64,000 bases of DNA from the NCBI GenBank assembly GCA_015232315.1, contig JADFZZ010000014.1:39101-103100 (forward strand). The letters run 5' to 3'. The notes beneath the pieces were generated by a model, which saw only the letters and a list, made by a program, of their open reading frames with translations, made no database searches and had not been told where the DNA came from. Shown one piece after another: positions 561 through 39,343 of this stretch. This DNA comes from SAR324 cluster bacterium. Lineage in GTDB: Bacteria; SAR324; NAC60-12. The translations under genes were made by a program, and so were the position numbers. Within the stretch, counting starts at the first letter, position 1; each line of letters begins with the position of its first letter.

Positions 561-3500
561 TTAAACCAGTCGTGCCACAATGAAAGTTGTGTCGTCATCC
601 CAAGCTTGATCTGAATAATGCTGACAGGCTGTTTTCAGAACACGGTCTTTGATTTCTGTGGCAGAGCAACCCATGGTGTTTTTGAGGACATTTTTCAAGC
701 GACGGATGCCGAACATCTCACCCTGTGAATTATAGTTTTCCAGAAGTCCATCTGTATAAAACAACAGCACATCCCCTTTTCGTAAATTTCTAACCTGACT
801 GGTGTAACGATTTTGTGCCTTATAGCCTAACGGTACGGAACGGCTATTCAAAGAATGAATTCCCTCTTTGGCCGTAGCAACCGTATTTTTTACAGTGTTG
901 TCATGCCATATCAACGGAGGATTGTGTCCAGCAGAGGTATAGGTGAGCTGATACTTCCTTAAATCCAGAGACGCATAAAAAAAAGTCATGGCATATTGAC
1001 CTTTTGTGGTGGAATATAACACTTCATTCAGCCACGCCAATGCATTTTCCTGACGCAGAAAAAGGTCATTCTCCACCTGATCATCCATGCAGACATCCAG
1101 TGTTTTATAAAAACTGCCGGCCATGGCAGTGATGAGTGCCGAAGGAACTCCATGTCCAGTCACATCGCCAATCAGAATATCCAGCACTCCATGAGCTTCA
1201 TAGTAACGGTAGCCATACCAATCGCCTCCGCTTTCTGACGCGGATTGATAAAAACTCGCCAGTTCCAGCCCTTCAACTTGCGGATCTGATGCGGGAATCA
1301 GTAACTCCTGCACACTGCGGGCAGTTTCCAGTTCATGCTTCAGACGTTCGGTGGTTTTCAGGTTTTCATAAAGTCGGGCATTGACGATTGAAATAGCGGC
1401 CTGAGAAGCCAGTGCTTTCAAAATAACCAGACGTTCCCTGGTGAAGGCTTCTTCCGCCAGATTGTTTTCCATATACACCATGCCAATGATCTGGTTCTGA
1501 TTCTGGATGGGGGTACAAAGCAGAGATTTAGGCTGATATTGCAGGATGTAGGGATCATTATAAAAATCAGGGGAATTGACAGCATTGCCGAGAACCAGAT
1601 TTTCACGAGTACGCATCACATAATGAATCAGACTGAGAGGCAGTAACGTCGTTCCTTCTGCTGACATTGACTCAAGAGGTTGGGGAGTCTGAGACGTTTG
1701 ATGTTCCTGTTCTGAGTGCCATTGGCCCACGATTTTCCATGTTTCATTTTCCAATAAAATCAGCACGCCTGACTGGGCCCCCGCGTTTTTCAACATGAGG
1801 TTCATCAGTTTGTTGAGAAGGTTTTCCAGCACAATTTCACTGGAAATGGTCTGAGATGCCTGCAAAACCGCGGCAAGATCAATTTGCTGGGAAAAGGTGC
1901 GTGAGGTCTGGTTATGAGCGGTTGTCTGATGCTCGTCAACGCTTCCAGTCCGCAAAACATCCTCCGATAATTTAAGATGTCGCTGATTCAACCTGTGAAC
2001 CAGAGCATGAGCTCCCCAGCGATTATAAGCATAGTGAGCCGCGCGAAAATGTGCGTCTGCTGAAAGATTCTGCTGGAACCCTTCAAAAAAACTTCCAGCA
2101 AGTTCATGCGCAAGCGCTTCATCCTGTGGAAACGCATGCTGTCGTGCCAAATCAATGGCCTGCTGATACAACCCCATGGCCTTGGTGCTGTTTCCGGAAA
2201 CGCGCTGATATTCAGCTTCCATCAAATACAGTTTGTGGGCATAATTATGGACGGAACTGTTTGCCCAGCGACGCATTTGCCGGATATCTTTTTTTGCTTT
2301 CCTGAGCAACGAACTGACTGAAACATCCGTGGTTCCCGCAAGTTTTATCCAGGCCAGTGTCCGGAAAAACAGAAACACTGGAATCATCGGAGAACTGATG
2401 GCAGAATCCCGATATGGCTGAGCCGCGTCAGCATATTCAACGGCCAATTCAATCCTGCCGTGATAATAGCATGAAATCATTTTGCACAAATATATGTTGA
2501 ATAAAAAGGAAGCATCCTGTTTTTCCAGAAAATGAGGCAACCAGTGTTCTTCATTAAAAAGCCTTCTGGGTGCCATGACAGTATGATCTGCTACATCTTG
2601 CAGATCAGCCATCAATTGGGCAAAAAATGACAAATACACACTAAACAGCTCCCGATCCAGGTGCTTCAGAATTTTACTATATTTTTCTATCTCAGTTTGT
2701 ACCAGATCCAACGGCTTCCCGGAAAAAAACGAGATAATGCAATAGTTATTGACCGCATACCCAGCATATTCCAGATCGCCAGATTTGAGACCTTTCTGAT
2801 AATCTTCAAGAAGGAGCGGAACCAATTGCTGAAGAGGTCTCGTCCAGTGATGGATGTAAAAGTGGATGACATTCAACACCCGACATTCCTGATCTGACAC
2901 ACCCAGTTTTTCCAACAGATCCAGTCCCAACCGGGCAAATTCATGGCCACGCTCAATCTGTCCCAAACCACCACACAGGACCACCCCGTAACTGACAAAC
3001 GCAAAGGGAGACCATTGGGTGTTGCCATAAGTCACGGATAATTTCAGTTGAGCAAACATCATGACCGGAATCATTTCCGGTTTATAAAACAATACCATCG
3101 GTGCAATGTTGACAAGAATTTTGATGGCGTTGAATTTGTTGACCTCTGTCATGAGGGGAAGGGTCATGAGTTCTTCAGGAGTTTTACGGTTCAACAGCAG
3201 CCATGTGTTCATTAAACCTGTCAGCAGATGCCATTTTCCCGGATGACGAGGAATGGACACACCCAACTTTTGTAAAATATCAATCGCCAGATCCAGGGCC
3301 TCATGGCCTTTGTTCCGGGGGAGCATGAGCAGGATCTGGGAATTACAGGCATCCAGTTGGTCTTCAAAAGTTCGGGCCTTTTGCTGAATCAGATTCACCA
3401 GTCGCTGGGCTTCGCTCAGATCACCAGACAGATAAGCGGCTTGAGTGTTGTCATTGTGCAGCGCCAAACACAGCGCATAGTGATTTTCCCAGGGAGATGC

Positions 3501-5840
3501 CCCGAGCCAGGCGATGCTGGCCTGAAAATAGCGCATGGCCGGTTCGAACGCGACAGCCTTCATCGCCCGACGGGCGGCCCTGCTGTTCAATTCTGCCATT
3601 TGCGGATTTTCAGTGCCACTGGTTTCTGACAAGCCGAGATTGAGATGATTCACCGCGTCAAACAAAAATTCCTCATGTTCGTCACGCTCCATCATTTTCA
3701 GTAGATATTCTCCGATTTTCCGGTGCAATTGGAATTTCAGGGACGGCTCAATATTTTCATAAACAGCCTGACGGACTCGATCATGCGCAAAACGATACAA
3801 TGTATTGGCCGAGCCAGATTGAAATCCCTCGGCATTCCGCAGTTCATGCTCACTGACAGGCAGAATGAATTCGTCCCACAGGGCATCCCACAGATTGGCG
3901 GAAATCTCCACCCAATCGTTTTCGGATAATGCGGACAAAGTCCGGGTATCAAACCGGTTTCCCAGACAGGCGGCCCATTCCAGCAGTTTCAGGGTGGGTG
4001 GGGTGAGTCGCCGCAGTTGATCAGACATCAAGTGAACCACATTATCGGTGATATTTTGGGATTCAATGCGTCGGAGATCCCATTCCCATTGTCTGGAATA
4101 TCCTGAAAACTGAATCAGCTTTTCCTTATGCAAGGTCTGAAAAAATTGCCGTACAAAAAATGGATTCCCCTGCGTTTTCTGGCAGATCAACTGTGCCAGA
4201 GAATAGAGCTGATCCTCAGGGTTGTGAAGCGTATCACGAAGCAATGCCTGAATATGTTCCACTCGCAAAGGTCTCAAGGGGATATGATGGGTCGAGACAC
4301 CAGCCTGTTCCAGTTCCAGCAATGTCAGAAAAGAGGGATGTCCCTCTGCCATTTCATTGTCCCGATAGGCGGTGATAAACAGAAACCGGTTCAGATCTGG
4401 AGCGGTCATGATGAATTTCAATAATTTCAGGGTTGCCCAATCCGCCCATTGCAGATCATCCAGATACAGCACCAGAAATTTATTATTCCGGGTAAAAACC
4501 CGCAGAAATTTCAGAAAAGTTTGATTGAACCGATTTTGGGCACTGGTTCCGGACAGTTCATAGGATTGGGCCTGTTCACCCGTGATGAGGGACCATTCCG
4601 GAATCAGGTCGCCCAGCACAGACAGGTTTTCTTCCAATTCCTCCGTCAGGCATTTTTTCCAGAAATCCAGAGTTTCTGCAGATTCAGTGAGCAGATGCCT
4701 TACCAGTTGCCGAACCGCTTGTAGTATTGAAAAATAGGGAATGTTGGCCTGAAATTGTTCAAATTTGCCGGAAATAAAATAGCCCTGGTTCTGATTCACC
4801 AACGGAATGAGTTCCCTGATGATTGCGGTTTTTCCAACGCCAGAGTGGCCTTTAACCTGAACCAGCACCGTGTTCCCTGTCAGGGCCTGCTCAAAGGCAT
4901 TCCGCAATTGTTCCAATTCTTCTAACCGTCCATACAAATTGGCGGGAATCTGGAATTTTCCGGATACATCCTGCAGACCAAGTGTGAATAGTGGAATCGT
5001 GTGTTGCTGATTCCAAAAATTCCGACACTGCTCCAGATCGGCTTGAATACCAAATGCGCTCTGATAACGGGAGTCGGGAGTTTTTGCCATCATTCGAGCA
5101 ATGATCTCACACAGCATTTGCGGGAGTTCCGGTCGGAGTTGAGCCAGGGGAGTCGGAGTTCTGGCAATGTGGCAATGAACAAGTTCCATCGTATCCGTTA
5201 CCGGAAAGGGCAGGGCCCCTGACAAAAGTTCATAAAAGCTGATGCCCAGAGAATAGAAATCGACTCGCCAGTCAACCATTCGATTCATACGTCCGGTCTG
5301 TTCTGGTGCGATATAGGCCAGGGTGCCTTCAAACTGTTCTACTCGCAACGACTCAACTTCGCTGGCAATCTGGTCTGCAATGCCAAAATCAATAATAGCC
5401 ACAACACCGGTTTGTGGATTGAAAATGAGATTGGAAGGTTTGATATCCTTGTGAATAATCTGTTGCTGATGAATATTGCCCAGAGCCTGCACCAGCCGAA
5501 TCGCTATTTCCCAAAAGGTTTCCAGCGGCATGGGTCGTTTTGCGGAAGTATACAGGTTATGCAGGGAGTCCCCGCCGATATCGTGCAGAATCAAAACCGG
5601 TCGGTCATCGCTCTCAATCAGGTCCAAGGCCCGGGTGAGACCATCCATAGACCATGAACGGGTCAATTCATATTCATGCCTCAAGGTTTGCGTCTCCTCA
5701 GGTGCTGGATACGCTTTGGCCAACGTTTTCAAAATAACCGATTCCCGGGTTTTCAACGATTTTCCCCGAAACACCAGTGTTCGATCACTCTGATGAATCA
5801 GCGTCAATTCATGATATCCGGCAATATTCATGATTGCCAT
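561..5840 (-). CDS. Giant Ser/Thr kinase-AAA ATPase-GAF-SpoIIE phosphatase fusion
   Basis: A 1759-aa cytoplasmic signalling protein with no membrane segments. Residues about 1-275 are a Hanks-type kinase: K38 as the beta-3 Lys, HKDIKPSN with catalytic D132, DFG at 151-153 and an APE at 178-180; the Gly-rich loop is degenerate, as is usual in this class. An AAA/STAND-type ATPase follows, with Walker A G331-T338 and a Walker B-like LYLDDLQWAD near 460. Residues about 750-1300 look like helical TPR-type repeats, then a GAF domain (about 1340-1500). The C-terminus is a SpoIIE/PP2C phosphatase with GDVTGHG, FYTDGL and DDDTT motifs. Related cyanobacterial fusions usually end in a histidine kinase; this one ends in a phosphatase, so kinase and phosphatase are on one chain. 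Likely partners are STAS proteins such as those at 11.8 and 17.5 kb (inference). The start has GGAG about 10 nt upstream; a second ATG lies three codons on. Confidence 0.9.
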   Translation of the reverse strand: MAIMNIAGYHELTLIHQSDRTLVFRGKSLKTRESVILKTLAKAYPAPEETQTLRHEYELTRSWSMDGLTRALDLIESDDRPVLILHDIGGDSLHNLYTSAKRPMPLETFWEIAIRLVQALGNIHQQQIIHKDIKPSNLIFNPQTGVVAIIDFGIADQIASEVESLRVEQFEGTLAYIAPEQTGRMNRMVDWRVDFYSLGISFYELLSGALPFPVTDTMELVHCHIARTPTPLAQLRPELPQMLCEIIARMMAKTPDSRYQSAFGIQADLEQCRNFWNQQHTIPLFTLGLQDVSGKFQIPANLYGRLEELEQLRNAFEQALTGNTVLVQVKGHSGVGKTAIIRELIPLVNQNQGYFISGKFEQFQANIPYFSILQAVRQLVRHLLTESAETLDFWKKCLTEELEENLSVLGDLIPEWSLITGEQAQSYELSGTSAQNRFNQTFLKFLRVFTRNNKFLVLYLDDLQWADWATLKLLKFIMTAPDLNRFLFITAYRDNEMAEGHPSFLTLLELEQAGVSTHHIPLRPLRVEHIQALLRDTLHNPEDQLYSLAQLICQKTQGNPFFVRQFFQTLHKEKLIQFSGYSRQWEWDLRRIESQNITDNVVHLMSDQLRRLTPPTLKLLEWAACLGNRFDTRTLSALSENDWVEISANLWDALWDEFILPVSEHELRNAEGFQSGSANTLYRFAHDRVRQAVYENIEPSLKFQLHRKIGEYLLKMMERDEHEEFLFDAVNHLNLGLSETSGTENPQMAELNSRAARRAMKAVAFEPAMRYFQASIAWLGASPWENHYALCLALHNDNTQAAYLSGDLSEAQRLVNLIQQKARTFEDQLDACNSQILLMLPRNKGHEALDLAIDILQKLGVSIPRHPGKWHLLTGLMNTWLLLNRKTPEELMTLPLMTEVNKFNAIKILVNIAPMVLFYKPEMIPVMMFAQLKLSVTYGNTQWSPFAFVSYGVVLCGGLGQIERGHEFARLGLDLLEKLGVSDQECRVLNVIHFYIHHWTRPLQQLVPLLLEDYQKGLKSGDLEYAGYAVNNYCIISFFSGKPLDLVQTEIEKYSKILKHLDRELFSVYLSFFAQLMADLQDVADHTVMAPRRLFNEEHWLPHFLEKQDASFLFNIYLCKMISCYYHGRIELAVEYADAAQPYRDSAISSPMIPVFLFFRTLAWIKLAGTTDVSVSSLLRKAKKDIRQMRRWANSSVHNYAHKLYLMEAEYQRVSGNSTKAMGLYQQAIDLARQHAFPQDEALAHELAGSFFEGFQQNLSADAHFRAAHYAYNRWGAHALVHRLNQRHLKLSEDVLRTGSVDEHQTTAHNQTSRTFSQQIDLAAVLQASQTISSEIVLENLLNKLMNLMLKNAGAQSGVLILLENETWKIVGQWHSEQEHQTSQTPQPLESMSAEGTTLLPLSLIHYVMRTRENLVLGNAVNSPDFYNDPYILQYQPKSLLCTPIQNQNQIIGMVYMENNLAEEAFTRERLVILKALASQAAISIVNARLYENLKTTERLKHELETARSVQELLIPASDPQVEGLELASFYQSASESGGDWYGYRYYEAHGVLDILIGDVTGHGVPSALITAMAGSFYKTLDVCMDDQVENDLFLRQENALAWLNEVLYSTTKGQYAMTFFYASLDLRKYQLTYTSAGHNPPLIWHDNTVKNTVATAKEGIHSLNSRSVPLGYKAQNRYTSQVRNLRKGDVLLFYTDGLLENYNSQGEMFGIRRLKNVLKNTMGCSATEIKDRVLKTACQHYSDQAWDDDTTFIVARLV

Positions 5841-6137: not shown

Positions 6138-7904
6138 TTGAAATCGTTGATGAGAATTTGTCATTCTGGGGTTAAGGTTCCTTCATTTTTCCGGGTGAAA
6201 TCCATGTTGTCTGTCTCGCAAAAAACATTATCTGTCGCTTCCTGGCTATGGCGAAAAACACTTTCGGAAGATCACAAACAGATCGCAATGCTTTATGTCG
6301 CCCTGTCTGTGCTGCTTTCAGAGTTCTGGGGACTGCATGCCTTGTTCTGGAGCATGGGCAAATTACTCATTTCCCAGTCAACCGTCAAATTACCACCAAT
6401 GCTGAGTGATGGATTGATTCTCTGGCACCTCGCCTATCCGTTGATGGTTGCGGTGTTATCCTATCTGATTCCTTTAATGATCGGTGCACGGAAAATGGCG
6501 TTCCCCCGATTGCTGGGATTGGGGTTCTGGTGTTTTGTATGGGGATCGTTCGCATTGATTTTCCAGGTATTGTTCGAGGAAAACACTCATTCTTCCAGAT
6601 ATTTAGCCATTGTATTGCTCTCAATGTCCAGTGGTTGCAACGCCATCAGTTATCTGGTCACCATCAAAAACATGCGAACGTCAGGAATGACAATGTCACG
6701 CCTACCATTGCTGATTTGGGCCGGTGCGGGAATGGCCTGTGTCTGGTGTCTCAAATGGCCGCTGGAAACCATGTTTGCGGTGTTGCAGGCTCTGGCAAAC
6801 CAAATGGGGGAATTTGCGATCATTGATAATCCGATATGGCGCATGTTCATGCATGATTACAGAATGTGGAATTTTCATCCGGAAGTGATGGTCCTTGTGT
6901 TGCCGTCTTTCGGGATTATTTTTTCAATTTTCTCCACCTTCAGCAAAAAGCGGACACTGGTATACACCGGACAAATTTTCCTGTTTGGCATGATCATCCT
7001 ACTACTGATTATTGGATGGTGGCGTATCATTCTGCCCATTCCTGAAAATTTTAACGCGGTTTTTCTTGCAACCGTCCTGGTTTCTTTCATGGGCATTCAA
7101 AGTCTGCTGGGAATTTTTTCCTTGTCGATCAATAAGAACATGCTGAATCCCGCCATGATTCTGTCCCTGAATGCTGTCACAGTGCCCTTGATATGTATCC
7201 TGATTGAAGCGGGTGACGCCATGTTCAAGATCGCCTATACGGATATCATACTGATTCTTGCTCCAGTTCATGTGCAACTGATCCTGATCAGCATGATTTT
7301 AACATCCGGCATTGCCGCCATTTATTTCTGGTTTCCCAAGGCAACTGGTCGGCATGTGTATCCGCACTGGTCAATTCTTCATGTGATATTGCATCTTGCC
7401 GGTGTTTACCTGTCTTGCATGCCAGTGATTCAAAGTTCAGAAGGAATTCATGTGTTCACTGAATGGGTTGCCATGTTTTCACATGAAACGCTTGTGTGGG
7501 TGACCATGGGGCTTTTCTGTTGGTGCACAGGCTATGGGGTGGGAATCTTTAACTGGTTTCATAGTTATCATCATGGAGCAGTAGCCTCTCATGATCCCTG
7601 GAATGGACGGACGCTTGAATGGAGTGTGCCCTCGCCGGTGCCCCCCTATAATTTTGCGGTGTCACCCAAAGTGCATACCATGGACGCGTTTTTATATGAA
7701 AAATATGTGCATCCCGATGTTGTCGCGCATCCAGAAATGATTGAGGTTCACGGAGCCCTTCCGGGTAGTTCCATCTGGCCTTTTCTGATCAGCGTTGGTG
7801 GAGTGATCGCATTGATCAGCCTGCTGTCATGGTTCTGGATGGTCATCCCCGGACTCATTTTTATGTTTGCCGGCGTTCTGGGCTGGGCCTTTCATCCTGA
7901 ATAA
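6138..7904 (+). CDS. Degenerate haem-copper oxidase subunit I homologue
   Basis: A roughly 588-aa polytopic membrane protein clearly homologous to cytochrome c oxidase subunit I. It has DHK near residue 45, IPLMIGARKMAFPR (111-124), HPEV (247-250), YFWFPKATGR (396-405) and the classic C-terminal NGRTLEWSVPSPVPPYNF block. Aligned on those anchors, most functional residues are gone. The helix II haem a His is Ser90. The D-channel Asp of the GARD motif is Lys119. The cross-linked Tyr after HPEV is Met251. The Cu-B His pair is Arg296-Ile297. The K-channel Lys is Gln321. The helix X His-x-His is His378-Val-Gln380. Only His247, Glu249 and His378 remain. It therefore should not bind low-spin haem or a normal Cu-B. 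Start is TTG with AGGA upstream; an internal ATG at 6150 or 6204 is possible. It is followed 4 nt later by the subunit III-like gene. Confidence 0.85.
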   Translation: MKSLMRICHSGVKVPSFFRVKSMLSVSQKTLSVASWLWRKTLSEDHKQIAMLYVALSVLLSEFWGLHALFWSMGKLLISQSTVKLPPMLSDGLILWHLAYPLMVAVLSYLIPLMIGARKMAFPRLLGLGFWCFVWGSFALIFQVLFEENTHSSRYLAIVLLSMSSGCNAISYLVTIKNMRTSGMTMSRLPLLIWAGAGMACVWCLKWPLETMFAVLQALANQMGEFAIIDNPIWRMFMHDYRMWNFHPEVMVLVLPSFGIIFSIFSTFSKKRTLVYTGQIFLFGMIILLLIIGWWRIILPIPENFNAVFLATVLVSFMGIQSLLGIFSLSINKNMLNPAMILSLNAVTVPLICILIEAGDAMFKIAYTDIILILAPVHVQLILISMILTSGIAAIYFWFPKATGRHVYPHWSILHVILHLAGVYLSCMPVIQSSEGIHVFTEWVAMFSHETLVWVTMGLFCWCTGYGVGIFNWFHSYHHGAVASHDPWNGRTLEWSVPSPVPPYNFAVSPKVHTMDAFLYEKYVHPDVVAHPEMIEVHGALPGSSIWPFLISVGGVIALISLLSWFWMVIPGLIFMFAGVLGWAFHPE

Positions 7905-7908
7905 TGCT

Positions 7909-8421
7909 ATGGGAAATCTTCGACTGGGTATTGGCATTTTTATCTTCAGTATTTGCTGGGCCTTTGCGGTTCTCGCCAGACTGGCGGCTTCATTTGATAC
8001 CCCGCAACTCAATCCCTGGAGTGTGCTTCCAGAAACATTTTTATCTGGTGGCGTTCTGTTGGCATTATGCTGTGTGATTCTGACGCTTTCATCCAGAGCG
8101 CTGAATCGGGGACAACGTTGGTATTTCAGATTCTGGTTTTTGCTATTCCTGGGTTTGAGTGTGGGATATATGTTGCTGAAAAACTATGAATTTATCCAGA
8201 TGTACCCACGTATGACTTCCTTCAGGCTGGTTTCAGCCCTGCCGTTGCTCATGAGCATGTTTCACACGTTGCATGTTCTGGCAGGATTTATCTGGGGAAT
8301 CGGTATTGGTGCCGTTTCCTGGCTTGATACCAACTGGAGAAACATGGAAACCCTGCGAGGATGTATTTTATATTGGTATGGAATGTTGGTTTTATGGATT
8401 GAACTCGCACTATTTCTTTAA
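7909..8421 (+). CDS. Cytochrome oxidase subunit III-like membrane protein
   Basis: A 170-aa protein with about five membrane helices. The C-terminal half follows the subunit III pattern: an aromatic-rich RGQRWYFRFW segment, then FHTLHVLAGFIWG in place of the usual TGFHGLHV, then a final LYWYGMLVLWIELALF helix matching the family's YWHFVDVVW. Its length suits the short five-helix form of subunit III. The ATG at 7909 is chosen because it sits just after the subunit I-like stop; an earlier in-frame ATG would overlap that gene. Subunit III binds no redox cofactor. No subunit II (Cu-A) gene is nearby, so this is not an ordinary oxidase operon. Confidence 0.75.
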   Translation: MGNLRLGIGIFIFSICWAFAVLARLAASFDTPQLNPWSVLPETFLSGGVLLALCCVILTLSSRALNRGQRWYFRFWFLLFLGLSVGYMLLKNYEFIQMYPRMTSFRLVSALPLLMSMFHTLHVLAGFIWGIGIGAVSWLDTNWRNMETLRGCILYWYGMLVLWIELALFL

Positions 8422-8435
8422 CCACCGGGACCTTT

Positions 8436-10625
8436 ATGGACACTGATTCAGACAAGAAAAGCACACCGCCAGCACCTGATCAGAACCAGCAGGATGGAAA
8501 GAAATTCGGAACATTTCATGGCGTATTCCGACCAACCATCCTGACCATCCTGGGTGTCATGATGTACCTTCGGGAAGGTTGGGTCGTGGGCAATGCCGGA
8601 TTACTGGGAGTGATTCTGATTATCCTGATGGCCTATGTGATTACGGGAACCTCCGCTCTCGCGATTTCCTCCATCACCACCAATATCCGACTGGGAGCCG
8701 GAGGTGTCTTTTCTATTGTCAGTCAAAGTCTCGGACTCGAAGTCGGCGGAAGCATAGGATTACCATTTTATCTGGCACAGGGACTTTCAACAGCGATGTA
8801 TATCTATGGCTTTGTGGAAGGCTGGCTATATATTTTTCCCACACATATTCCCATGCTGGTGTCATTCATTGTCTTTGCTGTCATCTTTATCCTCTCGTAT
8901 ATCAGCACAACACTCGCATTCCGGGTACAATTGGTCGTCATGTGCGGTGTGATTCTTGCGCTTACTTCCATTTTATTGGGAGCCAAAGTGAATCCCATCT
9001 ACACGCCGGAATGGTGGGGTGGATTTCAGGATGTGGGTTTTTGGGGATTATTCGCCATTTTCTTCCCAGCGGCTACCGGCATCATGGTCGGTGCGAGTAT
9101 GTCGGGCAATCTGAAAACACCACGAACCAGCATTTACAAGGGAACCCTGATCGCCTGGGCCTTGTCGCTTGTGGTTTATCTGTCGCTGGCTGTCTGGTAT
9201 GCGTGCATTGCGACACCTGAAGAACTCAGAAGCAATCTGACCATTGCGGTAGACCGTGCTTATTGGGGACCAGCCGTCCTGCTTGGAATATTGTCTTCCT
9301 GTTTCACTGCCGCCCTGAGTTCCTTTGTCGCGGCCCCCAGAATTCTTCAGTCGCTGGCAAAACATCAAATTGTGCCACTGTCTGAATTTCTGGGTAAATT
9401 GCATCAGGGAGAGCCCAGAAACGCCATGGCATTCACGGCATTGCTGGTTTTTGTAACACTATTATTGGGTGATTTGAATACCATAGCGCAAGTCTTGACC
9501 ATGTTTTTTCTGCTGACGTATTTCACCATCAACAGTGTACTGCTCATTGAACAGCAGTTGAATCTTATCAGTTTCCGTCCGACTTTCAGCATTTCTCAGG
9601 GAATTCCGCTGATTGGTGCAATGTCCTGTCTTTCAGCCATTGTGATCATTAATCCCTTCTGGGGAATGATCGCGATTTTACTGAGTGTTGGCATCTATTT
9701 TTATCTGGACCGCAGAGGACTCGACTATCCCTGGGAAACAGTACGCAGTGGTTTGTTTGTCGCCATCGCCAACTGGGCTGCCAAAAAAGTGGTGACCAGC
9801 AAAGAACAGGAAAGCTTGAGGTCATGGAAACCGGACCTGCTGATTCCGATTGAACGTAGAACCCAATTTGAAGGAAATTTCCGTCTTTTGAGCGCCTTGG
9901 TCTATCCTCAGGGGTCGATTCAGGTCATTGCCCTGATGAAAGAGAAAGATATTGTGCCACTTCTCGGACTCAAGCAACTGATCAAGGAAATGCAGAGCGA
10001 AGGCATTTTTGCGTCTGCCGCAATTATTGATTCATCCGACTATATCAGCAGTATTAAAGCAACCGTTGCAGTGATGAAAGGATCGTTTTTTCAACCGAAC
10101 ACCTTTTTCACGGCCATTGAAAGCCGAACACAGGAAGAGCTTCAGGGAATCATGGATATGGCAAGGGGAAATCAGATGGGAGTTATCCTGTTCGCCACAC
10201 ATCCAGAGGTTCATTTGGGCCGGGAGAGAACTATCAATCTGTGGATTCGTGATCAGTCACCTGAATGGCAATTGAGCATCCAGTTAGCGAATCTTGATCT
10301 GTCACTTTTGTTGGGCTACAAACTCGTTAAAAACTGGAATGCGCGTTTGCGTGTGATTACTGTGGTTTCAGATGAAAATCATGTTGACATCGCCAGGAAA
10401 TATCTGGGAGATTTAATGGTGACAGCCCGCATTCCAAAAGGCTATGAAATTATTGCCGAGTACACCGATTTCAAAACATTTCTTGAAAAATCGCCAAGGG
10501 CTGATCTGAGTATTTTTGGTCTGGCGGACACTATCAGCAAAAACTTCCTGCAACAAATAATGATCCAAACAAAAAGTTCCTGTTTATTTGTGCAGGATTC
10601 TGGACTGGAAAGTGCGTTGGCCTGA
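8436..10625 (+). CDS. SLC12-type cation-chloride cotransporter / APC permease
   Basis: A 729-aa protein with a short polar N-terminus, about twelve membrane helices (residues about 30-440) and a soluble C-terminal region of about 290 residues. The helix 1 region reads FGTFHGVFRPTILTILGV followed by MYLREGWVVG, the diagnostic start of eukaryotic and bacterial cation-chloride cotransporters. Family members move Na+, K+ and Cl- (or amino acids) together across the cytoplasmic membrane; the substrate here cannot be read. It lies 14 nt after the subunit III-like gene and is probably co-transcribed with the two oxidase-like genes. A short A-run/T-run follows the stop. Confidence 0.85.
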   Translation: MDTDSDKKSTPPAPDQNQQDGKKFGTFHGVFRPTILTILGVMMYLREGWVVGNAGLLGVILIILMAYVITGTSALAISSITTNIRLGAGGVFSIVSQSLGLEVGGSIGLPFYLAQGLSTAMYIYGFVEGWLYIFPTHIPMLVSFIVFAVIFILSYISTTLAFRVQLVVMCGVILALTSILLGAKVNPIYTPEWWGGFQDVGFWGLFAIFFPAATGIMVGASMSGNLKTPRTSIYKGTLIAWALSLVVYLSLAVWYACIATPEELRSNLTIAVDRAYWGPAVLLGILSSCFTAALSSFVAAPRILQSLAKHQIVPLSEFLGKLHQGEPRNAMAFTALLVFVTLLLGDLNTIAQVLTMFFLLTYFTINSVLLIEQQLNLISFRPTFSISQGIPLIGAMSCLSAIVIINPFWGMIAILLSVGIYFYLDRRGLDYPWETVRSGLFVAIANWAAKKVVTSKEQESLRSWKPDLLIPIERRTQFEGNFRLLSALVYPQGSIQVIALMKEKDIVPLLGLKQLIKEMQSEGIFASAAIIDSSDYISSIKATVAVMKGSFFQPNTFFTAIESRTQEELQGIMDMARGNQMGVILFATHPEVHLGRERTINLWIRDQSPEWQLSIQLANLDLSLLLGYKLVKNWNARLRVITVVSDENHVDIARKYLGDLMVTARIPKGYEIIAEYTDFKTFLEKSPRADLSIFGLADTISKNFLQQIMIQTKSSCLFVQDSGLESALA

Positions 10626-38857: not shown

Positions 38858-39343
38858 ATGAAAAAAATGATTTTCTGGATCAAAAGTCTTGATCTTCAAA
38901 GATATCCCAATGGAGGATATTTGTCAGAAACGTACCATTATGGTACTCATCAAGTTGATAGCATTGACCCTTTATGTAGCGGTTTGGCAAGTTACTATCT
39001 GCTTCCTGGCAATGAATTTCTTGCGTTCAATCGTCTCAATTCAGACATTCTCTGGCATTTTTATTATGGCTCCACAATGCATCTGCATATTATGGATAAC
39101 ATGGGTCAATATTATTGCTCCAAGCTGGGAAATAATCTCGATCGTGGTGAACGACATCAGGTGATCGTTCGAAAAAACTTCTGGTATGCGGCAACTGTTT
39201 ATGAAAAAAATGGTTATGCGTTGACTGGTGCCACTATTTTCTCAGGAGAGCAAAAAATTGATTTGGAAATGGGGTCGAGATCTAAATTATTGGAGGAATA
39301 TCCGCAACATTTTCAGATTATTGAAAAGTTAACGTTGCCGTAA
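38858..39343 (+). CDS. DUF985 cupin-like protein
   Basis: A 161-aa single-domain cupin of the DUF985/COG3542 group. Diagnostic motifs are LDLQRYPNGGYLSETY, FNRLNSDILWHFYYG, GERHQVIV, FWYAATV and the C-terminal LEEYPQHFQIIEKL. Family members have a beta-barrel that may bind a metal or sugar-like ligand; the biological role is not settled. It is the last gene of the R3H-to-PP2C run, 17 nt after the phosphatase. Confidence 0.88.
   Translation: MKKMIFWIKSLDLQRYPNGGYLSETYHYGTHQVDSIDPLCSGLASYYLLPGNEFLAFNRLNSDILWHFYYGSTMHLHIMDNMGQYYCSKLGNNLDRGERHQVIVRKNFWYAATVYEKNGYALTGATIFSGEQKIDLEMGSRSKLLEEYPQHFQIIEKLTLP

Follow-up and report, generated by a model that had tools for sequence, protein, structure and literature searches.

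Within a 64,000-nucleotide stretch from a SAR324 cluster bacterium (GenBank assembly GCA_015232315.1, contig JADFZZ010000014.1, forward-strand positions 39,101 to 103,100; hereafter the window, in which the positions below are counted), a gene ending at position 7904 encodes a protein that its sequence identifies as a homologue of the A-type haem-copper oxidase subunit I. Judged by alignment, at least three of the six histidine ligands of the family have been lost from this protein. The gene is followed by a second open frame for a divergent subunit III homologue. On balance, and somewhat beyond even chances, we lean towards a redox-dead I–III shell in a structural or regulatory role, with the membrane body and the cytoplasmic face as the parts that selection would preserve. 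The subunit I homologue would have a job other than respiration.

Results

An intact frame encodes a divergent oxidase subunit I homologue

6204..7904 (+): putatively metal-stripped oxidase subunit I homologue, 566 amino acids from the ATG at 6204; the frame opens at the TTG at 6138

The reading frame from 6138 to 7904 on the forward strand runs through 588 codons without a stop, as the original prediction from the sequence had stated. The ATG at 6204 is the likelier start, and the resulting 566 amino acids equal the length of the protein-database copy (P0002). The translated frame matches the Pfam COX1 family (PF00115) at 88.8 bits against a cut-off of 34.8, with homology over the COX1 domain. 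Scores against the NCBIfam models for CyoB, QoxB and CtaD (145.6, 122.1 and 136.9 bits) all lie below the curated cut-offs of 1020.35, 1015.5 and 670.75, respectively. The source assembly (5.25 Mb in 88 contigs, 95.18% complete) holds five COX1 matches, among which the subunit I homologue ranks fourth by score. All four backbone motifs named in the original prediction were located in the protein: GARKMAFPR at 116–124, HPEV at 247–250, YFWFPK at 396–401 and NGRTLEW at 489–495. The predicted fold has 12 helices, within the at least 12 of the family, and the structures matching the AlphaFold2 model are oxidases; the idea of a different fold was dropped on that ground. Sequencing error was also discarded as an explanation, the amino-acid changes being many, separate and in frame, and the adjoining genes normal.

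Most metal ligands and catalytic residues appear to be replaced

The catalytic residues were read from a MAFFT alignment (A1) of the subunit I homologue with 100 relatives, namely 95 of the 119 listed matches other than the protein itself and five loci. Ligands were inspected in 57 and then 95 rows of the best 120 of 1,959 protein-database matches. The positions at issue are:

6405..6407 (+): Ser90 codon, in the place of the helix II low-spin haem His by gapless register; Leu89 by profile hidden Markov model (HMM), His97 (6426–6428) by MAFFT
6492..6494 (+): Lys119 codon, in the place of the D-channel Asp of the family (Asp in 100/100 relatives)
6876..6887 (+): HPEV, with CuB-type His247 and Glu249 retained, by comparison with the A1 relatives
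6888..6890 (+): Met251 codon, in the place of the cross-linking Tyr of the family (Tyr in 100/100)
7023..7028 (+): Arg296–Ile297 codons, in the place of the CuB His–His pair of the family (His in 99/100 and 100/100)
7098..7100 (+): Gln321 codon, in the place of the K-channel Lys of the family (Lys in 99/100)
7269..7277 (+): His378 (retained, at the high-spin haem position by gapless register), Val379 and Gln380 (helix X His lost; His in 100/100)
7461..7466 (+): Glu442–Trp443 codons, in the place of a conserved Arg–Arg pair (100/100)

The six ligand histidines are complete in 97 of the 100 relatives, and P0023, P0050 and P0100 each lack one. In the gapless register the subunit I homologue keeps two of the six, His247 and His378; the count of two given in the original prediction is thus our best count too, and would become three if His97 were accepted. 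The helix II column is where the methods part company: the gapless count that starts at MIGAR lands on Ser90 and the profile HMM on Leu89, and both MAFFT alignments place His97 there at the cost of a seven-residue deletion. Since that deletion would fall within a membrane helix, we judge His97 unlikely to be the helix II ligand. For helix X, the HMM aligns His378 to the second, low-spin His and adds a two-residue insertion, while the gapless register sets it against the first, high-spin His. Since the helix contains a single His, one of its two ligands is missing whichever register is right. A two-His low-spin haem site was not found. Of the pair that the original prediction had assigned to it, Gln380 holds, and Ser90 belongs to the gapless register alone. 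At the CuB site His247 is the only one of three histidines left, the Arg296–Ile297 replacement being borne out by the relatives, as are Met251 at the tyrosine position and Lys119 and Gln321 in the two proton channels. The cross-linking Tyr and the channel residues are accordingly missing from the protein.

The alignment adds losses beyond those predicted: the Arg–Arg pair, which we take to contact the haem propionates, the helix I Arg (now Ser72), presumably another haem contact, most of the helix III–IV periplasmic loop, and three Asn at 108, 126 and 171, which we assume to lie near the D-channel Asp. Among the 139 columns conserved at 95% or above, 69 are kept and 70 lost, with one of the kept columns, that at His97, doubtful. 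These comparisons indicate that at least three of the six ligand histidines have gone, and that neither low-spin haem nor CuB would be bound. Because the defining features tested were not found, we do not class the subunit I homologue, as aligned, among the oxygen reductases.

Two readings would leave the protein with a metal cofactor. An oxidase that still works with unconventional metal ligands could call on the predicted fold and the two remaining histidines; we find it scarcely credible, since three or more of the six His have gone together with the Tyr and the D- and K-channel residues, and the contig shows no subunit II match. A membrane haem or gas sensor in which His378, alone or together with His97, holds a single haem is easier to entertain though still rather unlikely. 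His378 and His247 are retained, and His97 could be the ligand of helix II if MAFFT has placed it correctly. Against such a sensor, the gapless and HMM placements put no His in helix II, and the residues presumed to contact haem, namely the Arg pair, the Arg of helix I and the second His of helix X, are gone.

A subunit III homologue follows, and no subunit II is detected

7909..8421 (+): divergent oxidase subunit III homologue, 170 amino acids, five predicted helices, starting 4 bases past the subunit I stop codon

The frame at 7909–8421 is homologous to subunit III and is predicted to adopt the five-helix COX3 fold. It gives no Pfam COX3 match and reaches 20.7 bits with NF050119, for which the cut-off is 190; its divergence is on a par with that of the subunit I homologue. 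A search for its relatives returned only itself, both in the protein database (424 candidates) and in its own genome. For subunit II, a Pfam search of the contig that carries the subunit I homologue gave no match. Elsewhere in the assembly, Pfam COX2 and COX3 matches are confined to contig C42, where the canonical subunits I, II and III of the genome lie, with a weak COX2 match at C48.

The subunit I frame is unlike simulated neutral drift

Neutral drift was simulated in 200 runs without selection, starting from the genome's own canonical subunit I gene. The mean number of stops was 13.6 at an identity of 0.5 and 18.9 at 0.3, and no run out of 200 was free of stops at an identity of 0.7 or lower; the subunit I homologue has none, and the subunit III homologue is likewise free of stops over 170 codons. 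A second simulation, in which stops were forbidden and amino acids left free, comprised 1,200 runs from three starting genes at four identity levels. The lowest number of charges in the membrane core that it produced was 9 (from the C42 gene at 0.6 identity, with a start value of 8; the minimum was 10 at 0.5 identity), against 5 in the subunit I homologue and 4–8 in the family. The five charges, Glu62, Lys206, Glu210, Glu357 and Asp360, are new. Synonymous codon choice is native in the subunit I homologue (0.102 per codon against a null of −0.133, standard deviation 0.024), and the subunit III homologue gave 0.107 against −0.148 (standard deviation 0.046). The marks of a pseudogene, which are stops, frameshifts and a drift-like protein composition, were thus not observed. 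Those of a pseudoenzyme, a predicted fold kept with catalytic residues lost, are present, with simulation as the support for selection. We conclude that the subunit I homologue is likely kept by selection.

Retention is stronger on the cytoplasmic side

To compare the two sides of the membrane, helix limits were taken from the model and columns conserved at 80% or above were assigned to halves by the membrane topology of the oxidase family, which we assume to apply here. The cytoplasmic half keeps 64 of 114 such columns and the periplasmic half 32 of 114 (Fisher p 2.8e-5); when clustering was allowed for, the contrast was equalled in 4 of 227 circular shifts and 8 of 5,000 block shuffles. Within the limits of the modelled helices, cytoplasmic-side retention holds up over the full length of the protein, but over the membrane part alone it is no more than suggestive. 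We infer that the better-kept cytoplasmic face may be a working surface.

A kept face could also belong to a protein that acts as a decoy for the canonical C42 oxidase or regulates its assembly, competing for subunit III or for assembly factors. Much of the cytoplasmic face is retained, a subunit III partner gene is present, and the genome does carry canonical subunits I, II and III at C42. We nevertheless regard such a decoy as rather improbable, about on a level with the haem sensor: the pair comes with a divergent subunit III of its own, its contig is not C42 and the gene next to it encodes a transporter, and the subunit I homologue scores 143 bits with f2-type oxidases but 56 with the C42 oxidase.

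A single copy and weak retention of conserved columns weigh against a maintained shell

Several observations count against a redox-dead shell maintained by selection. No orthologue of the subunit I homologue appeared among the best 120 of 1,959 protein-database matches (7,997 candidates scored): the self-match scores 1278 bits and the next listed match, a COX1 protein, 167 bits. Nor was there an orthologue in the 51 other SAR324 genomes, which yielded solely COX1 homologues, none closer than about 31% identity. The protein is, on these sequence comparisons, a singleton, whose substitutions are confirmed by no orthologue. Retention ratios from the most to the least conserved class of columns were 0.50, 0.35, 0.35, 0.42 and 0.50, so that conserved columns seem to be retained little better than variable ones, a weak retention. 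The side contrast shrinks to 41/90 against 32/114 once the C-terminal tail is left out, and this smaller contrast was reached by 21 of 203 circular shifts and 87 of 5,000 block shuffles. The AlphaFold2 model leans on canonical relatives, and the predicted fold is to that extent non-independent evidence. A very divergent subunit II would evade Pfam, as the subunit III homologue did. Finally, in genome G005 a transporter–DnaJ gene pair like that downstream of the oxidase-like genes (see below) stands without them, and a possible functional link between the oxidase pair and the transporter is the least certain step of our explanation.

The other searches agree with this isolation. The nearest homologue among the listed protein matches has 31% identity; a pattern search of genome contigs for subunit I gave 16 matches and zero relatives; and a search of 39 genomes (its own included) and PL24a_bin.25, whose matches coincide with those of G010, found just COX1 homologues, none above about 31%. 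The best-scoring homologues in the other 51 SAR324 genomes are f2-family oxidases (G031, 143 bits, 30%). In the tree, the subunit I homologue sits on a branch of 7.71 changes per column without a supported neighbour or placement.

Such extreme divergence, the missing orthologue in both sets of searches and the nearly equal retention of variable and conserved columns are also what a decaying gene, open by chance, might display. We hold decay to be improbable, as it would have to leave zero stops in 566 codons and in the 170 of subunit III, membrane-core charge at the level of the family, and native codon usage. Retention is similar across conservation classes, and therefore constraint looks to bear more on the membrane body than on the old residues. 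The original prediction of a protein that is repurposed and not decaying is supported in its second half by the stops, charges, codon usage and open subunit III frame; repurposing itself stays an inference.

A cation-chloride cotransporter gene lies directly downstream

561..5840 (−): Ser/Thr kinase–AAA–GAF–SpoIIE phosphatase, 1759 amino acids, upstream and divergently transcribed from the oxidase-like gene
8436..10625 (+): cation-chloride cotransporter, 729 amino acids, 14 bases past the subunit III stop codon
10736..11629 (+): DnaJ-domain/HEAT-repeat protein; the transporter–DnaJ order is common to G005

The transporter is likely on the same transcript as the oxidase-like pair. Across seven transporter loci besides that of the window, no open reading frame gave a match to either oxidase-like protein (best E 0.38 for subunit I and 0.40 for subunit III); gene order was compared at one of the seven, G005:C3. 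Three cation-chloride cotransporters of G005 (L129, L130 and L131) are 69, 56 and 44% identical to the one in the window.

The intergenic gaps of just 4 and 14 bases, and a transporter with a 69%-identical homologue, would also suit a frame held open merely for transcription and translation into the transporter gene, its amino acids being irrelevant. This avoidance of polarity seems to us highly improbable, for the membrane core holds 5 charges where stop-free drift gave at least 9 in 1,200 runs, and the cytoplasmic-face and C-terminal motifs are retained.

The explanation that we prefer, the redox-dead shell, would run as follows. An A-type subunit I homologue has lost at least three of its six ligand histidines and other catalytic residues, and would bind neither low-spin haem nor CuB; subunits I and III would presumably still pair; and the pair would persist as a membrane shell with a structural or regulatory part to play. 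Least certainly, the pair may act with the downstream cation-chloride cotransporter as an accessory or regulatory module. The specific proposal that an oxidase core of I and III, minus its metals and its electron-input subunit, has become the built-in partner of the cotransporter in an ion-transport module is one that we regard as conceivable but doubtful.

Other unusual COX1 relatives in SAR324

Of 52 SAR324 genomes, 6 carry an open frame of another weak COX1 family, about 465 amino acids long and comprising L034:7934–9325 (−) (G000:C34) and L136–L140, with 30–52% identity to the G000 copy. His61, His212, His343 and His345 are invariant in it and are read as helix II, VI and X ligands; the site expected for two CuB ligands has no His–His pair, and two members scanned gave no NCBIfam match. 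By its sequences, this family is conserved and related to the oxidases, but its CuB site is incomplete. In two further oxidase-like proteins, L033:7087–8640 (+) (G000:C18) and L137:6273–7862 (+), GHSAQQ replaces the A-type GHPEVY, and the His–His pair and HFH are kept; in G002 (L137) the GHSAQQ protein lies about 1.4 kb from a member of the L034 family. A cbb3-like match at L002 (G000:C37) has a c-type haem-like motif, NCHSQ, within the same 717-amino-acid frame, which suggests a fused CcoN–CcoO.

Discussion

Haem-copper oxidase subunit I is usually treated as defined by six His ligands. No metal-stripped subunit I appeared among the open-licence papers listed in literature searches. The oxidase data sets of Sousa et al. 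(2011; PMC3084760) were compiled with sequences lacking six His left out, and a classifier with that filter would therefore miss metal-stripped proteins by design. If fold, partner gene and frame are indeed kept without metals, the oxidase scaffold is open to other use, and sequences rejected by six-His filters would be worth re-examining.

Among solved structures, the best matches in both sequence and fold are subunits I of the bo3 and aa3-600 quinol oxidases (CyoB/QoxB; PDB 8qqk and 6kob). These share with the subunit I homologue 12 helices and a C-terminal extension with a DPWNGRTLEW...YNFA block; unlike them, it is without the metal ligands, the Tyr and the D- and K-channel residues. The f2 oxidases of SAR324 (G024, G025, G028 and G031) keep six His in all four cases and are 26–31% identical to it. 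Their operons place subunit III directly after subunit I, as here, at three loci, the contig end cutting off the fourth before this comparison; in the two f2 loci scanned, a gene for a COX2–cytochrome c subunit II precedes subunit I, unlike the pair described here.

The Nitrospina gracilis cbb3 oxidase also has an odd substitution near CuB. In the genome paper, replacement of a conserved Trp there, with most binding sites intact, is reported and the single change in the CuB centre is termed unprecedented (PMC3578206). On that scale the SAR324 protein has changed more, for it lacks both histidines of the CuB pair, the Tyr, one of the helix X histidines and the residues of the two proton channels.

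CydB of cytochrome bd is a homologue of a haem-bearing subunit that is itself haem-less and is retained as a partner. It belongs to another superfamily, and it partners an active CydA, whereas no active partner was seen for the subunit I homologue, which would instead pair with an equally divergent subunit III.
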